A program made the translations under genes and the position numbers. DNA of 64,000 nt from Brevibacillus panacihumi W25 (GTDB lineage Bacteria > Bacillota > Bacilli > Brevibacillales > Brevibacillaceae), in the NCBI RefSeq assembly GCF_000503775.1, contig NZ_KI629785.1, positions 1 to 64,000 on the forward strand, written 5' to 3'. The notes under the pieces were generated by a model that was not told the DNA's origin, ran no database searches, and saw only the letters and a list, made by a program, of their open reading frames with translations. Positions 2,515 to 18,800 of this stretch are shown one piece after another. Within the stretch, counting starts at the first letter, position 1; the number at the start of each line of letters is the position of its first letter.

Positions 2515-2550
2515 AGCATGGGGTTATTCAAAAGGAGGCAAAAAAGTGAC

Positions 2551-2874
2551 ATGGACACCAAGCAATTAGTCAATACATTAAAAGCACTTGCTGACCCCAC
2601 CCGATTAAAGATCGTCAGCTTGTTAAATCACCGAAGCTGCTGTGTTTGCGAATTGGTACCCATCTTTGGGATATCGCAGCCCGCCGTGTCTAAGCACATG
2701 AGCAAGTTAAAAAGTGCAGACTTGGTGCTTGAATCAAGAAGAGGACAATGGGTGATCTACTCGCTGAATCACGAGCGTTTGGAACAAGTACGCTTTGCTT
2801 TAGGAAGTCTTCCCGATTACTCAGACGAGTTTGAAAGGCTAGCGGAACAGGGCCTTCTCGTTACCTGTGAATAG
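2551..2874 (+). CDS. arsR: ArsR-family arsenic-responsive repressor
   Basis: A small winged-helix repressor of 107 aa with the ADPTRLKIV opening, the recognition helix region SQPAVSKHMSKLKSADLV, and the As(III)-sensing pair CCVCEL in the alpha-3/alpha-5 region (RSCCVCELV). ATG 2551 is preferred over the upstream ATG at 2518, because AAAGGAGG at 2531-2538 lies between them and the upstream ATG is inside the promoter. It is the first gene of arsR-arsB-arsC and should repress its own promoter through the palindrome at 2496-2511. Confidence 0.93.
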   Translation: MDTKQLVNTLKALADPTRLKIVSLLNHRSCCVCELVPIFGISQPAVSKHMSKLKSADLVLESRRGQWVIYSLNHERLEQVRFALGSLPDYSDEFERLAEQGLLVTCE

Positions 2875-2895
2875 TCAAAGGAATGGAGAGAGAGC

Positions 2896-4194
2896 ATGTT
2901 TTCAGTATGGATTGCCTTTCTGATCTTTGCCGTGACGTTGACTTTTGTCATTTGGCAACCAAAAGGACTTAATATTGGTTGGTCGGCAACAGGTGGAGCC
3001 ATTTTGGCCTTAGTTTTTGGCGTTGTCAGCTTTGCCGACGTTGTGACCGTAACGGGAATCGTTTGGAATGCAACGCTGGCGTTTGTCGCCATTATTTTGA
3101 TTTCGCTGATCTTGGACGAAATCGGATTTTTTGAGTGGTCAGCCTTGCACATGGCCAGGTTAGCCAGAGGAAATGGCCGACGGATGTTCGTCTATGTGGT
3201 CCTGCTGGGAGCAGCTGTAGCTGCTTTCTTTGCAAACGATGGTGCGGCACTCATTTTGACACCGATTGTTCTTGCACAAGTGCGCGCACTGAAGTTCCCG
3301 GACAAAATGATTTTGCCTTTTATCATGGCCAGTGGTTTTATCGCGGATACCACGTCGTTGCCATTGATCGTGAGCAACTTGGTCAACATAGTCTCAGCAG
3401 ACTTTTTTGATATCGGATTTGTTGAATACGCGACCAGAATGATTGTACCTAACTTTTTCTCGCTAGGTGCAAGCTTACTCGTTTTGTATCTATATTTTAA
3501 AAATGATATTCCCAAACAGTATGATTTGTCTTCGTTAAAACAGCCTCATGAAGCCCTAAAAGATGTTCGTCTTTTCCGACTCTCCTGGGTCATTTTGGGG
3601 GTTCTGCTGACAGGTTATCTTCTGAATGAAGTGATTGCCATTCCGGTATCCGTCACAGCAGGGATTGCTGCCATTATCTTTATCCTAGCTGCACGGAGTA
3701 GTAAAGGTATTGAGACAAGAAAAATCATAAAAGAGGCGCCATGGGCAGTCGTGGTCTTTTCCATTGGCATGTATGTGGTTGTTTACGGTCTGCGAAATGT
3801 TGGGTTGACCGACATGCTTGGACAATTGATTCAAACACTTGCCGACCAGGGATTATTTGTAGCAACAGTAGGTATGGGATTCCTGGCTGCCATCCTTTCC
3901 TCGATCATGAACAACATGCCAACCGTAATGATTGACGCTCTGGCCATCCAGGGAACGGATACCACGGGAATCATCCGAGAGGCGTTAGTCTATGCAAACG
4001 TTATCGGAAGCGATTTGGGGCCAAAAATTACACCTATTGGTTCACTTGCAACATTGCTCTGGCTGCATGTCTTGTCACGTAAAAACGTGACTATTACGTG
4101 GGGACAATACTTCAAGACAGGGATCATCCTGACCGTCCCTACGTTGCTTATTACTCTAGTTGGCTTGTATCTGTGGCTGCAAATCGTCGCATAA
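2896..4194 (+). CDS. arsB: Arsenite efflux permease ArsB
   Basis: 432 aa, the usual ArsB length, with about 11-12 hydrophobic segments. It carries family hallmarks such as [14 protein letters not shown] (near residue 110) and [12 protein letters not shown] in the second half. ArsB exports As(OH)3 or Sb(III) across the membrane as an H+ antiporter and belongs to the ion-transporter (ArsB/NhaD) superfamily; it is not the ACR3 type. It lies 21 bp after arsR with a GGAGAGAG ribosome binding site and is followed by arsC at 32 bp, so the three form one operon. Confidence 0.95.
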
Positions 4195-4226
4195 AATCAC
4201 ATTCAACATAAAGGAGACAGAATTAC

Positions 4227-4652
4227 ATGGAGAACAAACCACTTGTCTACTTTCTTTGCACCGGGAACTCTTGCCGTAGCCAAATCGCCGATGGTTTTTT
4301 GAAAGCGCTGGGTGGCGATCGTTACGAGGTGAAAAGCGCGGGTTTAGAAGCTCACGGTCTGAACCCTCGGGCCGTTCAGGTCATGAAGGAGGCTGGAGTG
4401 GACATCAGCACTCATACATCAGATGTGATTGATGCTGAGACATTAAATCGTGCTGATTATGTCATTACGCTTTGTGGGCATGCAGATGAACATTGCCCTG
4501 TGATTTCCAATAAAAACGTTGTGAAGTGGCATTGGGGCTTTGACGACCCTGCGAAAGCAACGGGAACCGAAGGAGAGATCATGACTAGTTTCCGTGCCGT
4601 TCGTGATTCCATCAAAGAACGTATTGAAAAATTTCTTGCTGAAGGCAAGTAG
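4227..4652 (+). CDS. arsC: Arsenate reductase (thioredoxin-coupled)
   Basis: 141 aa with a low-molecular-weight phosphatase fold. The P-loop CTGNSCRSQ (Cys at about residue 11) is the nucleophile, and the pair in [11 protein letters not shown] supplies the other two redox cysteines of the Bacillus/pI258-type triple-cysteine relay. It reduces arsenate to arsenite using thioredoxin, and ArsB then exports the arsenite. It has a strong AAAGGAG ribosome binding site and is the last intact gene of the arsRBC operon. The remnant after it shows the operon once carried arsI too. Confidence 0.95.
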
Positions 4653-4872
4653 GTGAATGTAAGTCCTTATGCTAGTGATGAGGAGCGACTGCGGCAGGCA
4701 ATTTGCGGACCATCGATGAGATAGGCACCACTTGCTGCTACGCTGTTCAAGACAAAGTGTGGGTATACGATCCAGACGGAAGTGCGTGGGAGATCTTTAT
4801 ACAAAGGCCGATTCTGAGTTTGAATCAGCGGGGGAACAACGCGATATCTCCTTATGAGTGCATCGCCTACTA
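4653..4872 (+). pseudogene. arsI: Remnant of arsI (VOC-family C-As lyase), C-terminal part
   Basis: Directly after the arsC stop there is no intact gene. A frame from about 4685 reads through TTCCYAVQDKVWVYDPDG and then WEIF, the conserved C-terminal block of ArsI/CadI/YqcK vicinal-oxygen-chelate proteins, including the vicinal cysteine pair that binds trivalent arsenicals. A second frame from 4653 reads EERLRQA and stops at 4725, consistent with a frameshift. The N-terminal two thirds is missing and the tail runs into unrelated sequence before the IS3 element. The gene is not functional. Confidence 0.7.
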
Positions 4873-4967
4873 GGCCTGTATCCATTTGAATCGGCTACAC
4901 TGAATTGGACAGTTCTCTTAAGGTCTAGTAGATTAGAAACAAATCGAAAAAGGACGGAGAGAATGTC

Positions 4968-5252
4968 ATGGCTAAACGTGAACGTCGAACATTTACAGAT
5001 GAGTTTAAGCAGCAAATGGTTCAACTTTATGAGAACGGCAAATCACGTGCTGATATTTTAAGAGAGTATGATCTGAGTGCATCTGCATTTGATCGTTGGG
5101 TAAAACAGAGTAGAACCACCGGTTCGTTCACAGAAAATGATAATCGTACGGATGAACAAAACGAGCTCCTTCAGCTTCGTAAGGAAAATCAACGGCTGAA
5201 GATGGAGAACGATATTTTAAAGCAAGCGGCGCTGATCTTCGGACGAAAATAA
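4968..5252 (+). CDS. IS3-family transposase OrfA
   Basis: 94 aa. A helix-turn-helix of the transposase_8 type (RRTFTDEFKQQMVQLYENG, then SASAFDRWVKQ) is followed by a leucine-zipper-like coiled coil (LLQLRKENQRLKMENDILK). OrfA binds the IS ends. A GGACGGAGAG-type ribosome binding site precedes ATG 4968. Its TAA overlaps the ATG of orfB. Confidence 0.93.
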   Translation: MAKRERRTFTDEFKQQMVQLYENGKSRADILREYDLSASAFDRWVKQSRTTGSFTENDNRTDEQNELLQLRKENQRLKMENDILKQAALIFGRK

Positions 5253-6091
5253 TGGTAATCCAGCAAAATGCTCATAAGTATCCCATATCGGCCATGTGTA
5301 AGATCCTCCAGGTCAATCGGAGTACCTATTACTACGAGAATAATGAGCAATCATCTGTCGATGATGAGGTGGAACAAGCAATTATCCGTATTTTTGAAGA
5401 GAATCAGCGCGTTTATGGAGCAAGGAAGATCAAAGCAAAACTTCAGGAAGAGGGAATGACGGTTTCCAGACGACGCATTGGGCGTTTGATGAAGAAAAAC
5501 GGCCTGGTCTCGGTCTATACAGTTGCCCAGTATAAACCATACGTGTCTTCATGTAACGAATCGCTGATCCAAAACGAACTGAATCGCGAGTTTGCGAAAG
5601 AAGCACCACTGGAAGCCGTTGTGAGTGACTTGACCTACGTTCGGGTCGCAAACAAATGGCACTATATTTGCCTGCTCGTCGACTTGTTTAATCGGGAGAT
5701 TATCGGTCACAGCTGCGGAAAATTCAAAGATGCCGCCCTTGTTTACCAAGCATTTGCAAGCGTAAAAGGAGATCTGCGTCAAATCCAGCTTTTTCACACG
5801 GATCGTGGCAGTGAGTTTAAAAATCTTACGATTGATGAAGTGATCAAAACATTCAAGATCAGACGTTCTTTGAGTATGAAAGGCTGTCCTTATGACAATG
5901 CAGTTGCGGAAGCAACATTTAAATTGGTCAAAGCGGAGTTCGTAAGAAATCGCAAGTTTGAATCGCTAGCTCAGTTAAAGCAAGAACTGGGTACATACAT
6001 CAGATGGTTTAATGAAACAAGGATTCATTCCACATTAGGATATCTGAGCCCATTAGCGTATAAAGAAGTGGCACTTAAGAAATCTGTCTAG
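5252..6091 (+). CDS. IS3-family transposase OrfB (DDE integrase domain)
   Basis: 279 aa. An N-terminal HTH_21-type segment (YYYEN, then VYGARKIKAKL) precedes an rve integrase core with VVSDLTYV (D), FHTDRGSEF (D) and CPYDNAVAEATFKLVKAE (E), so the DDE triad is intact. The frame is -1 relative to orfA. The start ATG overlaps the orfA stop as TAATG, which points to translational coupling or to -1 frameshifting producing an OrfAB fusion. The element looks potentially active. Confidence 0.93.
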   Translation: MVIQQNAHKYPISAMCKILQVNRSTYYYENNEQSSVDDEVEQAIIRIFEENQRVYGARKIKAKLQEEGMTVSRRRIGRLMKKNGLVSVYTVAQYKPYVSSCNESLIQNELNREFAKEAPLEAVVSDLTYVRVANKWHYICLLVDLFNREIIGHSCGKFKDAALVYQAFASVKGDLRQIQLFHTDRGSEFKNLTIDEVIKTFKIRRSLSMKGCPYDNAVAEATFKLVKAEFVRNRKFESLAQLKQELGTYIRWFNETRIHSTLGYLSPLAYKEVALKKSV

Positions 6092-6205: not shown

Positions 6206-7252
6206 TTAGCTATTCTTCATTTGCTTTACTACATACTTCGCATCTCCCCCGACCCCACGGAGTGTAGCCGATGCCAGAGATCGCTGCCAGGGGAGACCAA
6301 CATAAAACAGTCCGTCTACAACTGTACTGATTCCCTTTTTATGAAGAGGAAATCCATTTTCGTCTAAAGCATGAAGCGAGGAAACGTAATGGACGTTCGG
6401 ACGATAGCCAGTGGCAAAGATAACAGTATCTACTTGTTCTTGCGTACCGTCTGACCAAACAACGCCTTCTTTCGTAAAATGGGTAAACATTGCTTTTCGA
6501 TTTGGTTTTTGATGCTCAATGACTTTCTGATATTTCCCTGTATCAAGCACACCTTCAGGTTTTGACTGAAGCAGCCATTTTCCAAAACCGGATTGGTCGA
6601 TCCCAAGTACTGTGACCCAGAAGTGAACATCCTTACCGAGAAGTACTTGCGGTTTAAAGAGAATGGGCGAGCGTGTGGCAATGGTAACGTCCGCATCTCC
6701 TGCCAACTCGACTGCAATTTGGACAGCAGAGTTACCAGCTCCAACGACTATAACGCGTTGATTTTGGTAAGGATATGGGTTTTTATAGTCCTTCGAATGG
6801 AGAGTGTTACCTTCAAATTGTTCAATCCCAGGGATAAGAGGGATAAATGGTCTGCTAAATCCACCTGTTGCAGCTATTACGTTTTTTGCTTTTAATACCT
6901 CCCCTGATCCAGTGGCAACCAAAAACAAATCGTCTTCTTTTCGAATTTCTGTTACAAAGGTATTGGTTTGAATCGGTAAGTGGAAGTGTTGGGCGTAATG
7001 AACTAAATACGATACAACCTCATCACGGCTAGGGTACCGGTTAGGATCTCCCGGAAAGGGGAGACCAGGCAGGGATGAGAAGCGAGCAGGTGAGAACAAG
7101 GTTAGGCTGTCATAATACTGTGGCCATGAGCCAGCAGGTTTATCGGTAGCTTCGAGAATGCTAAAATCAAGCCGCTCTTGTTGAAGGTGGTAACCTGCCG
7201 CCAAACCTGCCTGACCAGCGCCCACGACAATACAATCAAAAATATGGGTCAA
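6206..7252 (-). CDS. FAD/NADPH flavin-containing monooxygenase (ArsO-like)
   Basis: About 348 aa. An FAD-binding Rossmann motif is near the start (IVVGAGQAGLAAGYHL) and a second, NADPH-binding one near residue 165 (VIVVGAGNSAVQIAVELA). ATGGFSRP and FATGYRP are typical of the YrpG/FMO-type pyridine-nucleotide oxidoreductases. A TTG start at 7252 fits the GAGAGG ribosome binding site better than the TTG at 7261. It is transcribed with the arsR-type gene upstream, so expression is probably arsenic-responsive. Similar genes called arsO occur in ars clusters, but the substrate here is unknown. Confidence 0.82.
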   Translation of the reverse strand: MTHIFDCIVVGAGQAGLAAGYHLQQERLDFSILEATDKPAGSWPQYYDSLTLFSPARFSSLPGLPFPGDPNRYPSRDEVVSYLVHYAQHFHLPIQTNTFVTEIRKEDDLFLVATGSGEVLKAKNVIAATGGFSRPFIPLIPGIEQFEGNTLHSKDYKNPYPYQNQRVIVVGAGNSAVQIAVELAGDADVTIATRSPILFKPQVLLGKDVHFWVTVLGIDQSGFGKWLLQSKPEGVLDTGKYQKVIEHQKPNRKAMFTHFTKEGVVWSDGTQEQVDTVIFATGYRPNVHYVSSLHALDENGFPLHKKGISTVVDGLFYVGLPWQRSLASATLRGVGGDAKYVVKQMKNS

Positions 7253-7273
7253 GTTAATCAATCCTCTCGTTAA

Positions 7274-7289
7274 ATCGTTATATAACGAT
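7274..7289. promoter_or_regulatory. ArsR-type palindrome between arsR and the monooxygenase gene
   Basis: A perfect 16-bp palindrome ATCGTTATATAACGAT lies in the short gap between the two genes. It shares ATCG/CGAT half-sites with the promoter-linked site at 7633-7650, so the same repressor may bind both. Confidence 0.6.
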
Positions 7290-7318: not shown

Positions 7319-7606
7319 TCACTTACAACAATTGAGTAAATAGGTGTTGAGCTGTTGCATGGTTGCCAGTATCTGCTCTCGATTCGGGGAATAATAAACC
7401 TCTTTGCCTTCCTTCCGGGAATAAAGCATACCGGCTCTTTTAAGAATAGCGAGCTGTTCGGATGCAGTTGATTGACCAATCTCAACCAATTGAGCAACTT
7501 CGTTAACGGTAAGTTCTTTTCGATCCGAAAACAGAAACATGATCTCCTGTCTTTTTTCACTAGCAAGCGCCTTTAAAAAAGATTGTACTTCACTAAACTG
7601 TACCAA
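7319..7606 (-). CDS. ArsR-family transcriptional regulator
   Basis: 95 aa winged-helix protein: ALASEKRQEIMFLF, a recognition region IGQSTASEQLAILKRAGML, and a wing GKEVYYSPN. It lacks the CVC motif of the classical sensor helix but ends in NCCK, so a C-terminal cysteine pair may be the metalloid sensor. It starts at a TTG and is the first gene of a two-gene transcript with the monooxygenase. Its promoter, with an overlapping palindrome, is at 7633-7678. Confidence 0.88.
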   Translation of the reverse strand: MVQFSEVQSFLKALASEKRQEIMFLFSDRKELTVNEVAQLVEIGQSTASEQLAILKRAGMLYSRKEGKEVYYSPNREQILATMQQLNTYLLNCCK

Positions 7607-7632: not shown

Positions 7633-7678
7633 TATCGACATTTAACGATATAATATTCCTAATCTCAGTTGTTGTCAA
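7633..7678 (-). promoter_or_regulatory. Promoter and operator of the arsR-monooxygenase transcript
   Basis: On the minus strand TTGACA (7678-7673) and TATTAT (7655-7650) are separated by exactly 17 bp. Immediately downstream, TATCG-N8-CGATA (7633-7650) forms an inverted repeat overlapping the -10 box, suited to autorepression by the ArsR protein. Confidence 0.8.
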
Positions 7679-7811: not shown

Positions 7812-8003
7812 TCAGCAGCAAGAAGTACTTATAACTTTAGTATCTGTAGTGCAGCACGAAGAGCTGTTCTCTTGTGCTTCAGTACTGCAGCATGATTCTG
7901 CACCTTTTACTTGACTCTGAGCGCTAACCTCCTTGATTTCAACTCCACAGCAATTTCCATTCGCGGAACTATCGTTTACCAATTTTTTGATGAAGTTTGT
8001 CAT
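7812..8003 (-). CDS. Small Cys-pair-rich protein, probably arsenical-binding
   Basis: 63 aa with four CC pairs (NCCG, SCCST, SCCT and a terminal SCC) in a Ser/Thr/Lys-rich, apparently disordered chain. A strong AGGAGGA ribosome binding site precedes ATG 8003. Its NCCGVEIKEVSAQ resembles SCCGVEPQKESAQ in the tail of the oxidoreductase at 10734-12134, so this looks like a free-standing version of that tail. It follows the M28 peptidase gene by 21 bp on the same strand. A trivalent arsenic-binding or carrier role is inferred from paired cysteines and context only. Confidence 0.7.
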   Translation of the reverse strand: MTNFIKKLVNDSSANGNCCGVEIKEVSAQSQVKGAESCCSTEAQENSSSCCTTDTKVISTSCC

Positions 8004-8024
8004 CTTACATTCCTCCTAGTGTTT

Positions 8025-9260
8025 TTATTTGATCCCCGTAAGTATGGGGGAATCAATGAGTTTATTTACAATCTCATAGGTAACAGCGAATCCTTTTTCA
8101 ATGGGCTTGAGATGGAGATTATCTGGGTTATCGTTCAAGGTGTGAATACTCGTCGAATCAGGTAATGTTGGTTTTTGACCTAATCCGATCGTGGGTATCC
8201 CCTTTTGTATAAAAGCAACAGCGTCATCTCCTCCGGCAATCCATCGAACTTCAATCCCGTGATTCTTGATAACATCAGCAGCCAGTTCGGTTAACCAGTC
8301 GGTCGAGGCGCTATGACCGGTTCGAAGTGCAATAAGTTCTTTCTCGAAGCCTAAACAATCGAGATTTATGACTGCTGACAACGGAACGGGTGGGGTTAAG
8401 GCAAGCTTCTTTGCACCCCACAACCCAGACTCTTCTCCGGTTAAAAAAGCGACCAAGATGTTGCAGGGAAGGGGGGGTTCACGTTGAGCGAGTTTTCTGG
8501 CAACCTCTAGCATGACGGCAACACCGGATGCATTATCAATGGTTCCAGGGAATCGGACTCCCTGTGGATCATCACCAAGGTGATCGTAATGGGCGGTTAA
8601 TGCAATCGTATACCTTGAATCAATGCCGGGAAGGATTCCAAGCACATTTTGACAAGGACGCGTCTTTATTTCTAAGGGGAGTTCAATGGCAACAGGAAGC
8701 CCCCTTTGGTCCGCAAATTTATGTGCAAGGGATCGCCGGATTCGAAGTACCGGCAGTTTGCTTGTCTCAGATCCAAAAACTGTTTTGTGAAACGACTCTG
8801 GTTCCCCGGTTTCAATAAGGAGGGCAGCAACGCCCAGACTAGCGGCATATTCTATCGTGCCTTTTACATCGAAATCATTGGGACGTTCAGGGATTAAAAC
8901 AACTTTTCCAGCCAGATCTTCTGGTAATACGTCATCTCCATCGCGAATGGTGAGTAGATCCCCGGTGACAAATCCACCAGATGAAAATGGAGCGTATTCA
9001 GCAAAGTCTATTCGATGCAGCAGTTCGTTACCTACAATGACTAATCGAGCAGGAGAGACAAGTCTGGAAGCAGGTACATCTACATTTGTGAAAAATTCAT
9101 ATTCACCTGCGGGGGAGAAGCCAGCTCGGTTCAACGAGGACGCTAGGAAAACTGCTGCCTTTCGAGCTCCGTCCGTTCCCGAGAGGCGACCTGAAAAATC
9201 AACGCTGCTTAGCATGTATATATCTTGTAATATCCGCTCTGTTAATGGGGCCATCATCAT
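8025..9260 (-). CDS. M28-family zinc aminopeptidase
   Basis: About 411 aa. The C-terminal domain has the M28 di-zinc set: AHYDHLGDD (His), GTIDNASG (bridging Asp), LTGEESGLWG (catalytic Glu and ligand), NLDCLG (Asp) and SIHTLND (His). The N-terminal half resembles a PA-like insert. There is no signal peptide, so it is probably cytoplasmic. ATG 9260 overlaps the stop of the 57-aa ORF as TAATG, and the 63-aa Cys-pair protein follows. A peptidase inside an arsenic-regulated operon is unusual; its substrate is unknown. Confidence 0.88.
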   Translation of the reverse strand: MMMAPLTERILQDIYMLSSVDFSGRLSGTDGARKAAVFLASSLNRAGFSPAGEYEFFTNVDVPASRLVSPARLVIVGNELLHRIDFAEYAPFSSGGFVTGDLLTIRDGDDVLPEDLAGKVVLIPERPNDFDVKGTIEYAASLGVAALLIETGEPESFHKTVFGSETSKLPVLRIRRSLAHKFADQRGLPVAIELPLEIKTRPCQNVLGILPGIDSRYTIALTAHYDHLGDDPQGVRFPGTIDNASGVAVMLEVARKLAQREPPLPCNILVAFLTGEESGLWGAKKLALTPPVPLSAVINLDCLGFEKELIALRTGHSASTDWLTELAADVIKNHGIEVRWIAGGDDAVAFIQKGIPTIGLGQKPTLPDSTSIHTLNDNPDNLHLKPIEKGFAVTYEIVNKLIDSPILTGIK

Positions 9261-9433
9261 TAGCACGTTGCGCACTGATTCTGCTGAACATTGATGCCCG
9301 TTGTTTGTTGACGTGGTGCCGCCTGTTTTGCGTCCTCTTCACGACGGAATTGCCAAGCCTTCAGAGAGATGAAATTCAGTTTTCTTTTTTGTTCTTCATA
9401 AAGCATCTGAGCCAGCACATCATGCAAGATCAT
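9260..9433 (-). CDS. Small ORF coupled to the M28 peptidase, 57 aa
   Basis: It begins MILHDVLAQML and ends QNQCATC, with a basic, helical middle. ATG 9433 lies 8 bases after AGGAGC. Its TAA overlaps the ATG of the peptidase gene, a strong sign that it is translated. Two ArsR-like operators lie directly upstream. The C-terminal C-x2-C echoes the cysteine pairs of other proteins in this island. I do not recognise the family. Confidence 0.6.
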   Translation of the reverse strand: MILHDVLAQMLYEEQKRKLNFISLKAWQFRREEDAKQAAPRQQTTGINVQQNQCATC

Positions 9434-9449
9434 ACAAATCAGCTCCTAT

Positions 9450-9487
9450 ATCAATAATATTTGATGAATATATCAAAAAAAATTGAT
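9450..9487 (-). promoter_or_regulatory. Tandem ArsR-type operators of the peptidase operon
   Basis: Two copies of ATCAA-N6-TTGAT at 9450-9465 and 9472-9487 have centres 22 bp apart, about two helical turns. A third copy is in front of the arsR gene at 9507. They are probably binding sites for that ArsR protein controlling the small ORF-M28-Cys-pair operon. Confidence 0.75.
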
Positions 9488-9506: not shown

Positions 9507-9836
9507 CTAGCAGCAGCTGTTGCGACGGAAGATGCAGCAAAGTTCTTCAGAGAGAAGGTGGTTCACTTCGTCTGGATTCAAGGAGTAGTAATTCATGGTA
9601 CCCTCTGTCTCTTTGATAATCAGGTTTGCATCCAAAAGGATCTTCAAGTGGTATGAAAGTTTGGATTGGGCCATTTCGACAATCTCCGTCAAATCACATA
9701 CGCAAACTTTCCCTTTCTGAGTTAGCTCATACATAATCTGAAGTCGCTTTTTATCTGCAAGAGCTTTGAACTTTGCTTCGTACTTCTCGAAGAGGGCATC
9801 GTTATTGGTATGTAGGATTGGCAGCTCTTTTATCAT
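9507..9836 (-). CDS. ArsR-family repressor with CVC sensor and Cys-pair tail
   Basis: 109 aa. It has KALADKKRLQIMYEL, the sensor motif GKVCVCDL, and the recognition region AQSKLSYHLKILLDANLI, close to the CVC-type As(III) sensors such as B. subtilis ArsR and AseR. The C-terminus adds CC and SCC. The ATG at 9836 is chosen because AAGGTGA lies 5-6 bases before it; the upstream TTG and ATG fall in the operator. It is the likely regulator of the three ATCAA-N6-TTGAT sites, including its own. Confidence 0.9.
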   Translation of the reverse strand: MIKELPILHTNNDALFEKYEAKFKALADKKRLQIMYELTQKGKVCVCDLTEIVEMAQSKLSYHLKILLDANLIIKETEGTMNYYSLNPDEVNHLLSEELCCIFRRNSCC

Positions 9837-9849
9837 GTTCGTCACCTTC

Positions 9850-9900
9850 ATCAATTTTTCTTGATGGTCATACTATACACCTCGTTTTTCCAAAATACAA
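9850..9900 (-). promoter_or_regulatory. Promoter and operator of the CVC-type arsR
   Basis: On the minus strand TTGTAT (9900-9895) and TATAGT (9877-9872) are 17 bp apart. ATCAA-N6-TTGAT at 9850-9865 covers the expected transcription start, the right position for autorepression. Confidence 0.75.
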
Positions 9901-10185: not shown

Positions 10186-10207
10186 AAGATGAATTCAGGT
10201 GATGATG

Positions 10208-10666
10208 ATGAAACAGTTGGCTCAATACGTTAACGTTAGAGAAATATTTCAGGTATTAGTAAGGCGCTTTGGAGTTTTACAAAAGGATGGGGCACAATGC
10301 TGTGGTATTTCCGTTGTCCAAAGTCATATTCTATACGAGCTCCAAAAGAGGCCCAACATTTCCTTGAACGAACTCTCTGACATCTTATCTATCGATACCA
10401 GTACACTAAGTCGCCAGGTTCATTTTCTTGTAGAAATGGAGATGGTAAACCGGTTGCCTGATCCGAAAGATAGGCGGTATATTGTACTCTCGCTAACGCA
10501 AAAAGGTGAAGAGCAACACAAAGAAATTGCGGAGTACATGGAAACGTACATCTTGAATGTCTTTAATCAAATTCCTGCAGAAAAGCACGATCAGGTGTTA
10601 GAAAGTCTTCAATTGGTAAATGAAGCAATGCGGAATAGCGCAGATTGTTGTACCCCTCCTCTATAA
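10208..10666 (+). CDS. MarR-family regulator with cysteine pairs
   Basis: About 152 aa. It has a MarR winged helix: SHILYELQKRPNISLNELSDIL, the recognition helix TSTLSRQVHFLVE, and wing residues DPKDRRYI. Two vicinal cysteine pairs, AQCCGIS near residue 35 and ADCCTPPL at the C-terminus, are unusual for MarR and suggest a thiol-reactive arsenical or metalloid inducer. Several starts are possible (GTG 10199, ATG 10202/10205/10208); AGGTG spacing favours 10208. Operators precede both this gene and the downstream oxidoreductase. Confidence 0.85.
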   Translation: MKQLAQYVNVREIFQVLVRRFGVLQKDGAQCCGISVVQSHILYELQKRPNISLNELSDILSIDTSTLSRQVHFLVEMEMVNRLPDPKDRRYIVLSLTQKGEEQHKEIAEYMETYILNVFNQIPAEKHDQVLESLQLVNEAMRNSADCCTPPL

Positions 10667-10690
10667 CCTAGAGGAGTTTACTTAACAGAT

Positions 10691-10711
10691 ATAGTTGCAA
10701 ATATCAATTAT
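10691..10711 (+). promoter_or_regulatory. Second copy of the MarR-type operator
   Basis: ATAGTTG-N7-CAATTAT recurs here with the same spacing as at 10157-10177, and the spacers also agree at most positions. It lies 23 bases before the oxidoreductase start, so the MarR protein may repress this gene separately. Confidence 0.75.
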
Positions 10712-10733
10712 TTAAAAAGGGGACTAATGCAAA

Positions 10734-12134
10734 ATGAAATTACCTGTAGCGATTATCGGTGGAGGCCCAGTCGGGTTAGCAGCTGCGACACAACTTATTG
10801 ATAGGGGAGAGTCATTTGTAATTCTGGAAGCAGGAAGTCAAGTAGGGGCCAGCGTTTTGGAATGGGGACATGTCCGCATGTTTTCGCCTTGGGAATATAA
10901 CATGGATAGAACTGCTGTTACGCTGCTCTCAAAACATAAATGGGACGCACCGAATCCAGATGACATACCAACAGGGAAGGATCTTGTAGAAAAGTATTTG
11001 CAACCACTGGCGGCCCTTCCTGAAATTTCTCCATACATTCATCTCAACAGCAGAGTCATTTCCGTTGGTAAAAAAGACATCGATAAGATGAAAACAAAGG
11101 GAAGAGACCAGGTACCTTTCGTAATACATTATGAACAAAATGGTCAGCAGCATACTCTTGAAGCTAGAGCTGTCATCGATGCATCTGGAACATGGAAACA
11201 TCCTAATCCCGTTGGATCTGGAGGAATTCTCGCTAAGGGTGAAGCAGGGGCATCAAAACGTATTTTTTACGGAATTCCTGACGTATATGGAAAACATCGT
11301 GATCGATATGCAGGAAAGAAGGTCTTAGTGGTAGGGAGTGGCCATTCTGCTATCAATACGATTCTCGAGTTGAATCGTTTGAAAAATGAAGTGCCATCCA
11401 CTGAAATTTTGTGGGCGCTGCGGAAATTAAGCATTCAGGAAACGTACGGTGGAGGCGACGCTGACCAATTGCCAGAACGTGGAGCTCTAGGAACTGCCAT
11501 TAAGAAATTAGTGGAGAGCGGACGCGTAACCGTATATACACCGGTTCAAATTCAGGAGATATCAATCCAAAGTGACGTTCTTCACATTAAGGGAATGACG
11601 AACGGTGAACTGTTCCAATTGGAAGGCATCGATGAAATCATCACAAATACCGGTTCTCGACCTGATACTCAATTCTTACGAGAAATTAGATTCCAAGTAG
11701 ATCCTGCAATCGAATGCGTTCCTGCATTAGCAGACCTCATTGATCCTAATATTCATAGCTGTGGAACGGTAAGACCACATGGTGAAGCTGAGCTTCGTCA
11801 AGCGGAGAAGGATTTCTATATTGTGGGAATGAAGAGTTACGGGCGCGCTCCAACCTTTCTCCTTTCTACAGGCTATGAGCAAGTGAGATCCGTAGTTGCA
11901 GCGCTTGTCGGGGATTGGGACGCTGCGAAAAGAGTAGAACTCCAACTACCAGAGACAGGGGTATGTAGCATTAACAATGCCGGGCTAACTTTGCAGGAAG
12001 ATTCGTCTTGTTGCGCACCAACACCTGTAAAATCGAACAGTTGTTGCGGTGTGGAGCCCCAAAAAGAAAGCGCACAGGAAATAGCATCTAGCTGCACGCC
12101 GCAGCCAGTCAAATCGTCGAATTGCTGCGGATAA
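10734..12134 (+). CDS. FAD/NAD(P) oxidoreductase with a Cys-pair-rich tail
   Basis: 466 aa. GGGPVGLAAATQLIDRG at the N-terminus binds FAD and VLVVGSGHSAINTILELN near residue 198 binds NAD(P), as in flavoprotein monooxygenases and thioredoxin-reductase-like enzymes. After about residue 415 an appended tail carries SSCCAP, NSCCGVEP, SSCTP and NCCG. The tail resembles the 63-aa protein at 7812-8003. Cysteine pairs could hold an arsenical substrate or accept electrons. It sits between MarR and ArsN genes and is probably induced by a metalloid. The exact reaction is not known to me. Confidence 0.8.
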   Translation: MKLPVAIIGGGPVGLAAATQLIDRGESFVILEAGSQVGASVLEWGHVRMFSPWEYNMDRTAVTLLSKHKWDAPNPDDIPTGKDLVEKYLQPLAALPEISPYIHLNSRVISVGKKDIDKMKTKGRDQVPFVIHYEQNGQQHTLEARAVIDASGTWKHPNPVGSGGILAKGEAGASKRIFYGIPDVYGKHRDRYAGKKVLVVGSGHSAINTILELNRLKNEVPSTEILWALRKLSIQETYGGGDADQLPERGALGTAIKKLVESGRVTVYTPVQIQEISIQSDVLHIKGMTNGELFQLEGIDEIITNTGSRPDTQFLREIRFQVDPAIECVPALADLIDPNIHSCGTVRPHGEAELRQAEKDFYIVGMKSYGRAPTFLLSTGYEQVRSVVAALVGDWDAAKRVELQLPETGVCSINNAGLTLQEDSSCCAPTPVKSNSCCGVEPQKESAQEIASSCTPQPVKSSNCCG

Positions 12135-12172
12135 GTAAGCCAGATCACTCTTTATTGGAACCAAGTCAAATA

Positions 12173-12204
12173 ACTCCCCTGTCTTTACAGATGGGGGATC
12201 TTTT
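12173..12204 (+). terminator. Probable terminator after the Cys-tailed oxidoreductase
   Basis: CTCCCC-TGT and ACA-GATGGGGG pair around a CTTT loop with a small bulge and are followed by TTTT. The rest of 12135-12376 holds no gene I can support. Confidence 0.6.
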
Positions 12205-12376
12205 ATAAGCGAGACACAGGAGGAAGAAATTCGAAAGGGATCAGACATTACAGAGTCATGGTTCATTACTTCTGCAAGGAAAAGGAGTAAACCGGGTCCC
12301 AAAGAATGTAAACAGGAAAGTCATTATTACGAGCATTAATTTACCGATAGTAGACTAGCCTGGAGGGAAACAGCTC

Positions 12377-12868
12377 ATGAACCTTTCTATTCGAAAAGCA
12401 AACGAAGAAGACCTTGAAACCATCTTATCCATATACAATCAAGGCATCGCAGATCGAATCGCCACTCTGGAATCAGAGGAGAAGGATTACACCTACATCC
12501 GAAAATGGTTTGATGAGCATCAGGGACGATACGCGGTACTTGTCGCATCTTTGGGAGACCACGTTATCGGATGGGCTTCCCTTAATCGCTACTCCAACAG
12601 AAGTAGCTATGATGGTGTTGCCGACTTATCCATTTATATCGAACGATCTTTCAGAGGAAAAGGAGTTGGGAAGGTTCTTTTAAAGAATCTCGAGGAGGTT
12701 GCTCGATCCCAACGATTTTACAAAATCCTATTATTCACTTTCCCATTTAACGGTTTGGGGCAAGGACTTTACAAGAAATGCGGGTATCGGGAAGTTGGTG
12801 TGTTTCACAATCAGGGTATCTTGGATGGAAACTTTGTTGATGTGATGGCTATGGAAAAAATACTTTGA
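12377..12868 (+). CDS. arsN: ArsN-type GNAT N-acetyltransferase
   Basis: 163 aa GNAT fold. IYNQGIADRIATLE near the N-terminus, GVADLSIYIERSFRGKGVG (acetyl-CoA pyrophosphate loop RGKGVG) and KCGYREVG match the phosphinothricin acetyltransferase-like group that includes ArsN1, which acetylates the organoarsenical antibiotic arsinothricin. The arsenic context favours this over a bar-type herbicide resistance enzyme, but sequence alone cannot settle the substrate. GGAGGG precedes ATG 12377 and a small gene follows 15 bp downstream. Confidence 0.8.
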   Translation: MNLSIRKANEEDLETILSIYNQGIADRIATLESEEKDYTYIRKWFDEHQGRYAVLVASLGDHVIGWASLNRYSNRSSYDGVADLSIYIERSFRGKGVGKVLLKNLEEVARSQRFYKILLFTFPFNGLGQGLYKKCGYREVGVFHNQGILDGNFVDVMAMEKIL

Positions 12869-13344: not shown

Positions 13345-16062
13345 ATGGATATTAATGGAGCAAAATGGTGGAAATTTGATTTTCATACGCATACCCCTGC
13401 GTCCTTTGATTATGGTAGAGGTGACCACGCTTTAGCAAGCCTTACTCCTAAGCAATGGCTTTTGGAGGTTATGAAAAAAGAAATTGATTGTGTAGCTGTG
13501 ACTGACCATAATTCTGGTGCCTGGATTGATATTCTAAAATCAGTGCTAAAAGAAATGGAACAATCCCATATTGAAGGCTATAGACCATTAACTATTTTTC
13601 CTGGGGTAGAGATTACAGTACATACCGGTATACATTTATTGGCGATATTTGATCCATCTGAAACAAGTGAAACAATTATAGAGCTACTCGGTGCTTGTGA
13701 TTATGAAGGAAAAAAAGGATATTCCGATGGATGCACAACAAAATCTTTCAATGAAGTAGTTGAAGAAATAACCAAGAGAAAAGGTATTGCAATACCAGCA
13801 CACGTTGATCAGCCAAGCGGTCTGTTTCTTGTACATGAGGGGAATACTTTACGTAGTAGTCTTCAAGTAAATGGATTATTAGCTCTTCAAGTCTGTGATA
13901 AATCATTTACGAAACCACAAATTTATCATGAATCAAATTTAAATTTATCAGAAGTGGCAGGATCAGATAGTCATCATCCAGATCAACTTGGTACATCATA
14001 CACCTGGGTTAAGATGGAAAAACCAGATATTAATGCTTTAAAACTTGCCCTTCATGACGGAGATGACGGAGTAATCAGGTTTGATAATTGTCCTCATAAT
14101 CCTAACGATTTAGACAATCGATTTTTCATAAAAACAATTGAAATAAAAAATGCAGCCAAAGCCGGAAGAGGAGGACCACTAAAAATCCCGTTAAGTCCCT
14201 GGCTAAATACCATAATAGGGGGGAGAGGTTCAGGTAAATCAAGTATTATCGAATTTTTGCGTTTAGTATTAGATCAAAAGGATACTTTACCAGATAAATT
14301 AAAAAACGATTTTGAAAAATTTGCCCAGATATCTGAAGGTCGTGGAAAACAGGGTATGCTTACGGAAGACACAGAAATAAGGGTAGAAATGAAAAAAGAT
14401 GGACGGGATATTGCTCTTGTTTGGAAAAAAAATTTAATTAAAGAAGAACACAAAAATATGCATGGAGATTGGGAGGAGCAAGAACAGAGTAATATTATCG
14501 GAAAAAGATTCCCTGTCCGGATGTTCAGTCAAAAGCAGTTATTTGAACTTACACATGAACCTAAGAGTTTAATGCATCTTGTCGATGGAAAACTCGACAA
14601 ATTGAGTTGGGAAGAGAAAAGAGAAGAATTGGTTAATCAATGGTTAGAATCACGCAGAAAAGAAAGAGAAATCAATTCAAAATTAAAAAATAAATCAAAC
14701 ATAAAATTACAACTTCAAGATACGCATGCAAAGATTCAAATATTCGAAGCTTCTGGACACAAAGATCTCTTAACAGGATACAGAGAGGTACAAAATATCT
14801 CTCATGAAATCGATGAAATGTTGAATAACGTAAAAGAAATTAGAGATTCTGTAACCAGTATTGTCCCTTCATTCGACTTGCCTAATATCTCAGAAGTTTT
14901 ATGTAAAAGCTTAGATCAAACTTCTCTAATGATTATTAAAAAGAAGTTAAATGAGTTTGCCCAAATAAGAATGAAAATGGAAGCAATTAATCATGAAATA
15001 AGTTCGTATGTTGACCAATTTGAAGAAGACCTTAAACAAATTCCTTTTACAGTAAAAAGGAATGAAACAATTCACAAGTATGAAGAATTAGTTCAAAGAC
15101 TCCAGGAAGCAGGCGAAAAAAATCCCGAAGCATACAGTGAATTAGTGTCGTTAAAAGAAGATTTAGAAGCAAAAATAAAGGAAATAGACACCATTGAAAC
15201 TGAATACGAATCTCAGAAACATGAATCTAAAAGATTGTACCAAGAGATTGTCCAACATCAAAAAAAGCTTCGTGAAGAAAGGTCAAAAATAATTGAACGC
15301 TGGAATGCAAGTAATGAAAATATTAGATTATACCTTGATGAATTGGGTGACATCGTCCATGGTGAGGCTTCATTTAGGGAATTAATTCGACGACCTGGTA
15401 AAGAATTTACAAAAGATTTATGTGATCGTGACAAGGATGACAATCCCCAAGGTGGCTTCTTTAATGATCTACTATCAAAACGTGCTGAAGAACGATGGAC
15501 CTTAAGGGAAACGTTTATCAGACAGATTGTACAAGGAGAAGACGCAACATCAAATTTCAGTAAACCGTTTTTGAAACATATCCAAAACATCTCAACAAAT
15601 ACACCTGAAGACATCGATCGAATATGTACTTGGTTTCCTGAAGATAAGATCATTTTGAAGCTATTTAAGGAAGGACGCGAAGAGGATATAGAAACTGGAT
15701 CTGCTGGTCAACGAACCGCTGCGATGCTTTCGCTACTTCTTTTGCTGGACGATAGCCCGCTGATAATTGATCAACCTGAAGATGATTTGGATACAAAAAG
15801 GATAACGGATTTAGTGGTTAGTGGATTAAGAACATTTAAAGCAAAGCAACAGATAATTGTTGTCACCCACAACCCTAATATCCCTGTAAATGGAGGTGCT
15901 GAAAATATTATTCAGATGAATTATGCAAGAGGTTTAATTAGAACATTGGCGCATGGAGCTCTTCAAAAAAACGAGGTTAGAGAAGCAGTATGCGATGTCA
16001 TGGAGGGAGGGCAGAGAGCATTAAATAATCGTTATTTTAGAATCTCCAAAGCACTACAATAA
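13345..16062 (+). CDS. TrlF-type PHP-domain/SMC-like ATPase
   Basis: 905 aa. The N-terminal PHP phosphoesterase domain shows DFHTHTP (residues 12-18), VTDHNSGAW, PGVEITVHTGIHLL, PAHVDQ and GSDSHHPDQLG, the usual metal ligands. An ABC/SMC-like ATPase follows, with Walker A GGRGSGKSS near 291, a Q-loop (FSQKQLFEL), a long coiled coil of about 250 residues, a SAGQR signature near 785, Walker B LIIDQPEDDLD near 806 and an H-loop VVTHNPN near 840. This layout matches TrlF-family AAA-like ATPases, found in variable defence and mobile-element loci. The nucleotide or nucleic acid target is unknown. The domain call is firm, the defence role inferred. Confidence 0.85.
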   Translation: MDINGAKWWKFDFHTHTPASFDYGRGDHALASLTPKQWLLEVMKKEIDCVAVTDHNSGAWIDILKSVLKEMEQSHIEGYRPLTIFPGVEITVHTGIHLLAIFDPSETSETIIELLGACDYEGKKGYSDGCTTKSFNEVVEEITKRKGIAIPAHVDQPSGLFLVHEGNTLRSSLQVNGLLALQVCDKSFTKPQIYHESNLNLSEVAGSDSHHPDQLGTSYTWVKMEKPDINALKLALHDGDDGVIRFDNCPHNPNDLDNRFFIKTIEIKNAAKAGRGGPLKIPLSPWLNTIIGGRGSGKSSIIEFLRLVLDQKDTLPDKLKNDFEKFAQISEGRGKQGMLTEDTEIRVEMKKDGRDIALVWKKNLIKEEHKNMHGDWEEQEQSNIIGKRFPVRMFSQKQLFELTHEPKSLMHLVDGKLDKLSWEEKREELVNQWLESRRKEREINSKLKNKSNIKLQLQDTHAKIQIFEASGHKDLLTGYREVQNISHEIDEMLNNVKEIRDSVTSIVPSFDLPNISEVLCKSLDQTSLMIIKKKLNEFAQIRMKMEAINHEISSYVDQFEEDLKQIPFTVKRNETIHKYEELVQRLQEAGEKNPEAYSELVSLKEDLEAKIKEIDTIETEYESQKHESKRLYQEIVQHQKKLREERSKIIERWNASNENIRLYLDELGDIVHGEASFRELIRRPGKEFTKDLCDRDKDDNPQGGFFNDLLSKRAEERWTLRETFIRQIVQGEDATSNFSKPFLKHIQNISTNTPEDIDRICTWFPEDKIILKLFKEGREEDIETGSAGQRTAAMLSLLLLLDDSPLIIDQPEDDLDTKRITDLVVSGLRTFKAKQQIIVVTHNPNIPVNGGAENIIQMNYARGLIRTLAHGALQKNEVREAVCDVMEGGQRALNNRYFRISKALQ

Positions 16063-16267: not shown

Positions 16268-16879
16268 ATTTTCACCCTCTCTAATGATTTATTTGATGAT
16301 ATTATGAGATGCCTTTATTTATTACAACCTAGATTTTTTGGGGGTAACAGGAGCTGCTTTGAAGTACAACGTCACAAAACTACTGCCTATGCAAACGTTA
16401 TTATATCAATGGTTTTACCATAATAAGGACGACAAAATTATACCTCCTTATTATGCATGCGACACAAATATACTTCGATTAAGATACAGCCCGTCACAAA
16501 AGTACTTTCTTAATAAGCAGTAGAGACTGTTTGACAAGGTAGGACATTTAAAAATACAAAATCAAGCGATGGCCGATACTCAAGTGTTCATTACAGGGAA
16601 TCGGCCGTTGAATTTTAAGAGATTAAAAACGATTGAGAGGGTACTTTACTTAGCTCAAGATGAGTTAGAAGTAATCGATTAGGGAATAAGGCTACCTAAT
16701 TGCCCATTGAAACAGAATGCAACCATTGGAGTGAGATGACGATCTATTTCGGACGTATCACCATAAACATAGTAAAAAATTATAGAATAATGTCAAAATA
16801 TATAGAATTATGTTATATTCCTCATAAAGACTGGGAAATAAATCTTATATTACATTTATTAAAGAAGAGGTGTACGGAA
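16268..16879 (+). other. Gap before the helicase gene, probable gene debris
   Basis: No intact gene is convincing here. A short open stretch at 16570-16683 (MADTQVFITGNRPLNF onward, 37 codons) has a normal look but no ribosome binding site, and another frame from a TTG at 16338 is open for 61 codons. Both look like remnants. The end of the interval should contain the helicase promoter. Confidence 0.35.
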
Positions 16880-17976
16880 ATGGAAACGATCGAATTAACT
16901 CTTCCAGCCATTTACACCATTGATGTCACAATTCATAAAAACAAAATAAGACAACTTTTAGTACCAGAAGAAAAGGGAATATTTCTAGTTAGTAATTACA
17001 ACGAAAATAGGGTAAAGGGATACCTTTTAACGAACGAAACAGGGGAAAAATTACTGGCAATAACGAATTCTGCTCAAGCTCCTGAATCCTTCGAAAAAGC
17101 ACTTAAGTTGAATGGTAATTTACCATCACTAGGTAATTTGAAATGGATCAAGCATCCCAGCCTCAATCAAGATATGAACGATCGTAGTATTGACAATTGG
17201 GTACACGCCCGAAATTCTTGGGTGGGGAGTTTTCTTTTTAAGAGTGAGTTGAAAGAAAATGGATACATTTATCAAGAGGGCCTTCGACCACCACAAATAG
17301 GGGCAATTCACGCTACATTATCCCACTGGATAGTATCAGATAAGCCTGCAACTATTGTCATGCCAACGGGAACCGGAAAGACTGAAACCATGCTGGGTTT
17401 ACTAGTGGCTAACAAGTGCAGAAAACTGCTCGTCGTGGTCCCTACTGACCCATTAAGAAACCAAATTGCTGAAAAATTTATCGGCTTCGGCGTATTAAAA
17501 CAGTTCGGTGTAATTTCCGACCATGCTCATTATCCAGTAGTCGGGGTGTTAATGCATAAGCCTAAAACTTTCCACGAAGTTGATGATCTCTTTTCTCTTT
17601 GCAATGTAGTGATCACTACGATGAGTATAGCTGGAGGTATCGCAACTGAACTTCAAGATAGGATGGCGTCCCACTGTTCTCATTTATTTATCGACGAGGC
17701 CCATCACATTGCAGCTCCAACTTGGGCGAACTTTAGGGGGAAATTCAAGGAAAAGCACATTGTTCAATTTACTGCTACTCCCTTCAGAAATGACGGTAAG
17801 CATATCGATGGGAAGGTTATCTTTAACTATCCATTAGAAAAAGCACAAAGGGAGGGTTATTTTAGAAAGATTAATTTTTATCCAGTTCTCGAATTTTCTA
17901 GTGAAATGTCTGATAAGACAATTGCGGAACGAGCAGTTGAGCAATTAAGGAATGATTTAAAGAACGGGTATGACCA

Positions 17977-17984
17977 TTTATTAA
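17977..17984 (+). repeat. IS66 target-site duplication, left copy
   Basis: TTTATTAA directly abuts the left inverted repeat of the element. The identical octamer follows the right end at 20510-20517. Eight bp is the usual IS66 duplication. Confidence 0.97.
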
Positions 17985-18091
17985 GTAAGCGTCTAATAAG
18001 ACAGTGGATAGAAACCTCCCTAAAACTATAGGACAATCCTCTCAAGTAAAGTTTTTAAAGTAAAGTTGAAAAACTTGAAAGGGGTTTAGAG

Positions 18092-18454
18092 TTGGATACC
18101 AGGGAAGTCACTACCCAATATCGTTTCAACCAGTGGACTGAGATCGTCCGTAAATGCCGCAGTAGTGGCCAGACAGTCGCTGTGTGGTGTGCTGAGAATA
18201 ACATCAAACCATCAAGCTATTATTATTGGTTAAGAAGGATCCGTAAAGCCGCCTGCGAAGCGCTTCCGTCACTTAGTGGAAACAATCCAATCGTTCCAGT
18301 ACATATTCCAAACCACGCAGTTGAAACTTGCTCTTCGGATCAAGAATCATCGGATATTGTCTTGCGTTTTGGGGCTGTAACACTGGAGATTCGCAACCAT
18401 GCATCAGCAACATTGATCGAAAACACCCTGAGGGCACTGCAACATGTTCGGTGA
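18092..18454 (+). CDS. tnpA: IS66 accessory protein TnpA
   Basis: 120 aa. It starts at TTG 18092 after AAAGGGG. A helix-turn-helix-like N-terminus (RFNQWTEIVRKCRSSGQTVA, then SSYYYWLRRIRKA) is typical of IS66 OrfA. It overlaps tnpB by 11 bp, which suggests coupled translation. Confidence 0.9.
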   Translation: MDTREVTTQYRFNQWTEIVRKCRSSGQTVAVWCAENNIKPSSYYYWLRRIRKAACEALPSLSGNNPIVPVHIPNHAVETCSSDQESSDIVLRFGAVTLEIRNHASATLIENTLRALQHVR

Positions 18455-18800
18455 TATCTCGAAAGCAGATAAAATCTATATTGCTTGTGGGTATACCGAC
18501 ATGCGAAAGTCCATTGATGGACTCGCCGCCATTGTCCAGCAGAACTATCAGTTGAACCCTTTCCAGAACAGTCTGTTTCTCTTTTGTGGTAGGCGACGTG
18601 ATCGGTTGAAAGCACTCTGTTGGGAGGGAGATGGATTTGTTCTCCTTTACAAGCGATTGGAAAACGGAAGTTTTCAATGGCCAATGAATGCCGAAGCCGT
18701 TCGCTCTATCACCTACCAGGAATTTCGCTGGCTTCTCGAAGGCTTATCCATAGACCAACCGAAGGCCGTGAAAAAGATCAATATTACCGCCTGTATGTAA
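18444..18800 (+). CDS. tnpB: IS66 accessory protein TnpB
   Basis: 118 aa IS66 Orf2 family: YIACGYTDMRKSIDGLAAIVQ, LFLFCGRRRDRLKALCWEGDG, and a C-terminal FRWLLEGL. The protein is needed for transposition in the family, though its biochemical role is unclear. It is full length. Confidence 0.95.
   Translation: MFGDISKADKIYIACGYTDMRKSIDGLAAIVQQNYQLNPFQNSLFLFCGRRRDRLKALCWEGDGFVLLYKRLENGSFQWPMNAEAVRSITYQEFRWLLEGLSIDQPKAVKKINITACM

Follow-up and report, generated by a model that had tools for sequence, protein, structure and literature searches.

A probable arsenical-response operon of Brevibacillus panacihumi W25 that pairs an M28 peptidase with a small cysteine-pair protein

We describe a short operon in the first 64,000 nucleotides of contig NZ_KI629785.1 from Brevibacillus panacihumi W25, a bacterium with a genome of 5.5 Mb. 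That whole stretch is our window. The operon holds an open reading frame (ORF) of 57 amino acids (aa), a gene for a metallopeptidase of family M28 and a gene for a protein of 63 aa with four Cys-Cys (CC) pairs, which we call CysPair. The main finding is that a CysPair ORF lies directly beside the M28 gene in all 12 loci that have a near-full-length M28, and that these loci span three phyla at M28 identities of 30-80%. A peptidase found beside a cysteine-pair protein even in distant relatives suggests a peptidase-based step in arsenic detoxification. We regard the arsenical-response character of the operon as very probable, and a direct functional link between M28 and CysPair as likely. The arsenic pathways known to us use reductases, methylases, oxidases, lyases, acetylases, chaperones and pumps, and we know of none with a peptidase. 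The elements of the operon are these:

9450..9465, no strand: ArsR operator 1, ATCAA-N6-TTGAT, ATCAATAATATTTGAT (pattern search and tandem search of the genome)
9472..9487, no strand: ArsR operator 2, ATCAA-N6-TTGAT, ATCAAAAAAAATTGAT (pattern search and tandem search of the genome)
9850..9865, no strand: ArsR operator 3, at the arsR start (pattern search)
9507..9854, minus strand: arsR, 115 aa from the listed TTG (MMKVTNMIK...), with CVCDL, LCCIF and a C-terminal CC (Pfam HTH_5 and NCBIfam NF033788, above cut-off)
9260..9433, minus strand: 57-aa ORF, ending QNQCATC, of the cysteine-tailed small type that follows arsR (ORF listing and position)
8025..9260, minus strand: M28 metallopeptidase, 411 aa from the ATG at 9260, with a GTG at 9275 as alternative start (Pfam PF04389)
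7812..8003, minus strand: CysPair, 63 aa, four CC, the conserved partner of M28 (homology comparisons; no family match)

The genes run leftwards on the minus strand from 9854 in the order arsR, 57-aa ORF, M28 and CysPair, ending at 7812, and the tandem operators (9450-9487) precede the 57-aa ORF. The TAA stop of that ORF overlaps the M28 ATG at 9260 as TAATG. A gap of 21 bases separates M28 from CysPair, and AGGAGG stands ahead of the CysPair ATG. An earlier note on this DNA had described tandem ArsR-type operators leading into a tightly packed 57-aa ORF ending CATC, a TAATG-coupled M28 gene and a 63-aa protein with four CC. Its coordinates and the junction read as it said, although its range of 7812-9487 left the repressor gene (9854-9507) outside. 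The operators are equally firm: ATCAA-N6-TTGAT has 3 exact matches in the 64 kb against a mean of 0.17 expected, and none of 100 shuffles reached three. The tandem form, with 4-34 bases between the sites, occurs once in the whole genome, at 9450-9487. The arsR product matches NF033788 at 91.8 bits (cut-off 55) as well as HTH_5, carries the CVCDL cysteine motif by our reading, and has putative operators at its own gene and at the 57-aa ORF. A promoter scan gave fewer sigma-70-like sites than the shuffled mean and is therefore uninformative.

The 12 loci are those of the window, Brevibacillus gelatini, Cohnella lubricantis, Bacillus ISL-37, two genomes that we label G375 and G1505, five Chloroflexota and Nonomuraea. 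They represent Bacillota, Chloroflexota and Actinomycetota; genome G1553, whose M28 is truncated, is left out. CysPair was detected by tblastn and translation in Cohnella, B. gelatini, G375 (overlapping frames) and locus L008. Four other M28-containing loci (L002, L011, L012 and L013) showed no CysPair-like ORF in the DNA examined, apart from one unrelated CC-containing ORF 1.6 kb from the M28 of L011; with short flanks at some of them, these loci make a weak control. The earlier note had suggested checking whether the whole trio always lies near CVC-type arsR genes, and said that its idea would fail if the peptidase occurred in many genomes without the Cys-pair gene or the ArsR sites. The trio is not conserved, and the regions fetched for 8 of the 12 loci lack an exact operator, but the adjacency of M28 and CysPair holds throughout and a near-full-length M28 of this clade was never seen without its neighbour. 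Judged by gene order, the conserved unit is M28 with CysPair and not the trio.

The operator can also be used without the peptidase. We searched 199 genomes from the order of Bacillus ISL-37 (the Bacillales-order sample) for the tandem operator and found it in 35, while the reversed control pattern gave 0 in each. We took 10 kb around the tandem sites in 34 of these (G406, left out, is the Bacillus ISL-37 locus) and marked genes by matches within 2.5 kb of the operators. Of the 34 operator loci, 30 have the window-type ArsR and 15 an ArsP_1-type permease; ArsI is present at 8, a CC-tailed monooxygenase at 2 and M28 at 1. Locus L091, with three operators followed by CysPair and then M28, came from the operator search, in which M28 was not the bait. 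Beside an arsA-arsD-arsC-transporter operon, two Cytobacillus plasmids have arsR with a short cysteine-tailed ORF, and one of the two also has ArsI and a CysPair homologue under two ATCAA-N6-TTGAT operators. From these patterns we read the motif as the mark of an ArsR regulon in Bacillales-order genomes. We place the window operon under an arsenical-type repressor because the other neighbours of the same ArsR are often of organoarsenical type, and the cassette is probably one for trivalent organoarsenicals. The earlier suggestion of an undescribed arsenical-response module survives in part. The regulon with ArsP_1 and ArsI is there, and we found no description of such a module with a peptidase, but the unit is M28 plus CysPair and not three genes. 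Searches of the open-licence literature, a scope outside which most subscription papers fall, gave no paper that joins an M28 peptidase or aminopeptidase with an arsenic operon. As a side observation, a 2025 review of arsenic in Bacillus states that arsP, arsJ and arsK were undetected in the ars operons of the genus (PMC12607644); the tandem-operator regulon (L065-L098), with ArsP_1-type permeases in 15/34 and ArsI in 8/34, stands in contrast to its statement on arsP.

The 57-aa ORF has no family match in Pfam or NCBIfam and no match in a plasmid search at a limit of 0.1. Similarity searches of the loci brought up no convincing homologue either (one match, at E 0.049, is at chance level). Its putative status as a gene rests on its position, its ribosome-binding site and the short cysteine-tailed ORFs that occupy the same place in relatives. 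Four of the 6 Bacillota M28 loci have such an ORF (window, Cohnella, ISL-37 and G375), as do 13 of the 34 operator loci by motif count and the two Cytobacillus plasmids; M28 was seen in none of the latter 15. They go with arsR rather than with M28. The trio as a conserved unit is therefore rejected: cysteine-tailed ORFs follow arsR without M28 on plasmids and at operator loci, and similarity searches gave no convincing homologue of the 57-aa ORF in the other M28 loci, although ORFs of the same type stand in Cohnella, ISL-37 and G375.

CysPair has no match in Pfam (up to E 0.1) or NCBIfam and was therefore not assigned to ArsD, metallothionein or SaoC. Plasmid searches with the window and ISL-37 proteins gave no match at limits of 0.01 and 0.01. 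ArsD is a metallochaperone, and the ArsD/ArsA pair resembles our case because an ars island there, too, encodes a small protein with adjacent cysteines in pairs, but the partner of CysPair is a peptidase or a permease, not an ATPase. Metallothioneins and phytochelatins offer an analogy in packing many thiols into a short peptide; CysPair differs by its paired CC with polar linkers and by being encoded with a peptidase. Another comparison is the SAO system, whose permease is SaoE. As a review (PMC13188914) and NCBIfam names present it, this system of Haft and Gwadz has CC-COOH and selenocysteine proteins with transporters. It shares with our loci a permease of the PF03773 superfamily alongside small CC-tailed proteins. 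Permeases of our loci score 84.2 and 82.7 bits against a SaoE cut-off of 325, and the small proteins do not match SaoC.

ArsP-type operons come closer. An ArsP_1-type permease belongs to the same ArsR regulon and stands beside CysPair in Bacillales-order genomes, and ArsP-type permeases, predicted exporters, are in the M28 cluster of 7 of the 12 loci (PF03773 for two, the rest by similarity). Where CysPair was read without M28, ArsP is present at each of the 11 operator loci concerned, with CysPair directly behind it in 8, and ArsI on the one Cytobacillus plasmid. CysPair might then be only an accessory of ArsP, as the 11 CysPair-ArsP loci without M28 would allow, but we reject this idea. A search of the host genome for ArsP at E<=1e-10, made without a positive control, gave no match although M28-CysPair is present, so the pair seems independent of ArsP there.

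Regulation of the pair may differ by lineage, with ArsR in some and a SigZ-type sigma factor in others. The M28 loci whose fetched regions lack the exact ATCAA-N6-TTGAT are the five Chloroflexota, Nonomuraea, B. gelatini and G375, and in 7 of these 8, all except B. gelatini, a SigZ-type sigma factor gene is nearby (two assigned above the SigZ cut-off, the others by similarity). These genes, of extracytoplasmic function (ECF) type, lie at L007 3152-3796, L008 ~2292-2852, L026 ~6517-7086, L030 ~13385-13948, L031 ~11434-11979, L025 5047-5646 and L034 3082-3924, and the proteins that were read have cysteines near the end. A metalloid-linked role for SigZ is possible.

CysPair proteins linked to M28 also look different from those that are not. 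Glycine follows the first CC in 11 of 12 linked proteins and in 0 of 12 unlinked ones (Fisher 9.6e-6, ignoring kinship). Counting any CC that has a next residue, it is glycine in 37 of 43 linked cases against 4 of 25 unlinked (24 CysPair proteins, kinship again ignored). The unlinked set omits L083, a weak match at E 0.006, and two further ORFs were left uncounted: the second CysPair of B. gelatini (L029 983-1117) and a 45-aa ORF after the Priestia permease (L100). We believe the glycine contrast is a lead, not proof. In B. gelatini the second CysPair-like ORF sits beside ArsP without M28 and its first pair reads CCD; the M28-linked copy reads CCG.

Bacillus ISL-37 gives the closest comparison. 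Its operon is near those of three relatives (ArsP 93-99% identical), and its ArsR nests among theirs at a starred fork of our ArsR tree. The relatives lack M28; in ISL-37 the gene sits exactly between the operator and the ribosome-binding site of CysPair. The first cysteine pair reads CCG in ISL-37 against CCS, CCS and CCN in the three relatives. On the ArsR tree the presence of M28 needs three changes, at least 2 of them forced by starred forks, where shuffled labels average 3.9; since 58 of 500 label shuffles did as well as the observed arrangement, clustering of M28 on this tree is not shown.

The M28 protein is a good member of its family, with a PF04389 match of 110.4 bits against a gathering cut-off of 21.3. 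The metal ligands and catalytic Glu (H224, D242, E276, E277, D301 and H373) are invariant in nine aligned proteins and the ligands are intact in the window protein; the roles of these positions come from aligned solved relatives and from what is known of the family. The nine proteins and the Nonomuraea homologue also agree throughout at R83, K159, D230, D231 and R236. The structure model has a predicted local distance difference test score (pLDDT) of 79 and a predicted template modelling score (pTM) of 0.80. Its closest folds among the matches listed are the Aneurinibacillus aminopeptidase 2ek8 by E-value and B. subtilis BSAP/YwaD (6hc6) by TM-score. The model aligns over about its full length with both (TM 0.68-0.73); the Pfam PA domain reaches 14.6 bits, under its cut-off of 23.9. 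With these PA-domain aminopeptidases our protein shares PF04389, the metal ligands, the overall fold and the domain order. It differs in its identity of only ~20%, in having no evident signal peptide by our reading of the sequence, in FHK 157-159 (invariant in nine members) and a GDD-R insert, in its predicted control by ArsR, and in belonging to a clade always found beside CysPair.

Could it be an ordinary aminopeptidase after all? The closest relative, in B. gelatini of the same genus, is 80% identical, and against it both genes are under purifying selection, with ratios of nonsynonymous to synonymous change (dN/dS) of ~0.14 for M28 and ~0.20 for CysPair. The host genome has only one other match at E<=0.001, at 26% identity. 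At thresholds of E<=1e-30 or 1e-40 the clade has at least 2 carriers among 39 genomes of the family, 4 among 398 Bacilli, 2 among 400 Chloroflexota, 1 among 394 of the Cohnella genome's family, 3 among 251 of the Anaerolineales genome's order and 3 among the 199 of the Bacillales-order sample. These counts include the centre genome or known carriers drawn, and since scoring was confined to the best few candidates of each genome they are minimum figures. This rarity and the single other match at 26% argue against a common housekeeping aminopeptidase. A related idea is that M28 supplies thiols under arsenic stress, releasing free cysteine by general peptide hydrolysis or by cleaving a Cys-containing low-molecular-weight thiol or its arsenic adduct. 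Arsenic consumes thiols, and the closest solved relatives are named aminopeptidases. Yet a general role needs no strict coupling to CysPair in three phyla that differ, to our knowledge, in thiol chemistry, nor does it sit well with so rare a clade (the Bacilli, Bacillales-order and Chloroflexota figures above). We think it quite unlikely.

The explanation we prefer is as follows. The 57-aa ORF, M28 and CysPair would form one ArsR-repressed transcription unit of an arsenical-detoxification island, with M28 and CysPair as its functional core. CysPair would be a short peptide, probably without fixed structure, that captures trivalent arsenicals with its cysteine pairs. At other loci the regulon includes ArsP-type permeases and the C-As lyase ArsI, so the arsenicals are most likely organic. 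M28 would be a cytosolic, metal-dependent enzyme of aminopeptidase type, dedicated to CysPair or to equivalent short thiol peptides. By trimming or turning over arsenical-loaded CysPair it would pass the arsenical to oxidases, an acetylase or an exporter, and cysteine would be recovered. Our observations cover the gene layout, the specificity of the operator, membership of the regulon, the intact metal ligands of the window protein, the apparent lack of a signal peptide, the 12/12 pairing and the glycine contrast; the single transcription unit, the binding of arsenicals, the peptidase activity, the substrate and the recycling are deduced from them. As a whole this explanation is tentative, a little short of an even chance in our estimation, and we would say much the same of CysPair or thiol peptides as the predicted substrate of M28.

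The genes around the operon bear on a second explanation:

7319..7606, minus strand: second ArsR, 95 aa, beside ATCG-N8-CGAT palindromes at 7274 and 7634 (family profiles; a relative near M28 in Nonomuraea, 48%)
6206..7261, minus strand: ArsO-like flavin monooxygenase (NCBIfam NF040505 at 280 bits, under the cut-off of 425; relative at the Nonomuraea locus, 50%)
10199..10666, plus strand: MarR-family regulator with CC near the C-terminus (Pfam MarR; relatives near M28 in G375, G1553 and B. gelatini)
10734..12134, plus strand: flavin monooxygenase with a CC-rich C-terminal tail (Pfam; relatives near M28 in G375, G1553 and Nonomuraea)
12377..12868, plus strand: ArsN1 family A, arsinothricin N-acetyltransferase (NCBIfam NF040503 at 212.2 bits, cut-off 170)
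2518..4652, plus strand: inorganic ars operon with a third ArsR, an ArsB-type arsenite transporter and a thioredoxin-type ArsC (TIGR00935 at 741 bits, cut-off 415; TIGR02691 at 199 bits, cut-off 174)

The main rival to our explanation is that a peptide-bound organoarsenical (peptidyl arsinothricin or similar) enters the cell, that M28 unmasks it by freeing the amino-acid arsenical, that CysPair holds the trivalent form, and that ArsN1, the flavin monooxygenases and ArsP dispose of it. Here the known system is arsinothricin resistance. The family A acetyltransferase lies 3 kb from M28 in the window, and G375, B. gelatini and G1553 each have a relative (58-68% identical) no more than about 8 kb from M28, making 4 of 13 with the truncated G1553 included. 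The best ArsN1 match in the 34 operator loci reaches only 34%, the regulon is of organoarsenical type, and an acidic substrate could be bound by R83, K159 and R236, basic residues that never vary in the clade alignment but do not appear in the two PA-type aminopeptidases aligned with it. A CC-tailed monooxygenase is near M28 in 4 of 13 loci, Nonomuraea included, yet also in 2 of the 34 operator loci without M28. On the other side, no ArsN1 match was found in the fetched regions of the other 9 of 13 M28 loci, and the window ArsN1 lies across the regulator region, outside the predicted M28 transcription unit. The flank sizes differ between the two sets, so ArsN1 in 4/13 against 0/34 is not a clean test. 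We know of no described peptide form of arsinothricin, and the constant CysPair neighbour is left unexplained. This rival seems to us unlikely, if less so than thiol supply.

Several observations weigh against the explanation we prefer, that of a peptidase dedicated to CysPair or similar thiol peptides. Many loci evidently make do with CysPair and no M28. Since BSAP-type enzymes are exopeptidases, one that attacked the arsenic binder encoded in the same operon would have to be selective for its loaded form. The exact operator is missing from most M28 loci. The linked CysPair set is 5/12 Chloroflexota while the unlinked set is all from Bacillales-order genomes and a Cytobacillus plasmid, and the glycine test was not corrected for phylogeny. 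The structure model is of moderate confidence (pLDDT 79) and drops below 50 in segments 155-166 and 229-238, where conserved residues lie. The M28 frame is broken in 2 of 12 loci: that of G375 is frameshifted, and that of G412 has an internal stop at codon 118 of the match; the truncated copy in G1553 lies 1.7 kb from arsC without a CC-rich ORF; and in Nonomuraea the last metal ligand has changed from His to Gln. Interrupted, truncated and ligand-changed copies mean that the gene is dispensable or altered in some lineages. The same copies favor the view that M28 is a passenger or catalytically dead, a relic or a structural scaffold, and that CysPair alone provides the arsenic function. That view has to contend with the purifying selection between the two Brevibacillus genomes, with metal ligands invariant in nine sequences, with the placement of M28 between operator and CysPair in ISL-37, and with the 12/12 pairing. 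It is in our opinion very improbable.

Some observations on the surroundings remain. The ATCG-N8-CGAT palindromes at 7274-7289 and 7634-7649 flank the second arsR and are likely a separate operator for arsR2-arsO. The Nonomuraea locus, where M28 is 30% identical, has M28 and CysPair together with relatives of three more window genes, namely ArsO at 50%, the second ArsR at 48% and the CC-tailed monooxygenase at 46%, and with another ArsR. Downstream of its M28 (L106 16827-21208) are ORFs that read as thioester-reductase-, carrier-protein- and 2-oxoacid-dehydrogenase-like, perhaps a small biosynthetic cluster. The MarR regulator, CC-tailed monooxygenase and ArsN1 of the window (10199-12868) recur as a set in G375 and G1553, while B. 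gelatini and a Paenibacillus plasmid have a MarR gene, a permease gene and ArsN1 together instead; the MarR regulator may sense an arsenical. After arsC, a 56-aa ORF (4703-4873) resembles the C-terminal part of ArsI (TCCYAVQDKVWVYDPDG) and is by our reading apparently a remnant, followed by two ORFs that read as IS3-type transposases (4968-6091). Farther on (16700-22658), a helicase-like gene is apparently split, again by reading, by an IS66-type transposase gene (18894-20432). A PHP-domain-ATPase-like ORF (13345-16062, by reading) is near the interrupted gene; this is perhaps a broken defence locus.

Put at its most specific, our proposal is a peptidase-coupled arsenical sponge. A ribosomally made Cys-Cys-Gly peptide, a gene-encoded counterpart of phytochelatin, would be the dedicated substrate of M28, in a mobile trivalent-organoarsenical cassette of Bacillota, Chloroflexota and Actinomycetota under ArsR or possibly a SigZ-type sigma factor. 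In this full form it is doubtful, and stands only just ahead of the unmasking of a peptide-bound arsenical in our estimation. If it is true, arsenic detoxification would gain a hydrolytic step, through a peptidase tied to a cysteine-pair peptide in three phyla, and an unrecognised family of arsenical-binding peptides. The operator motif also gives a handle on a Bacillales-order regulon that contains ArsP-type permeases.

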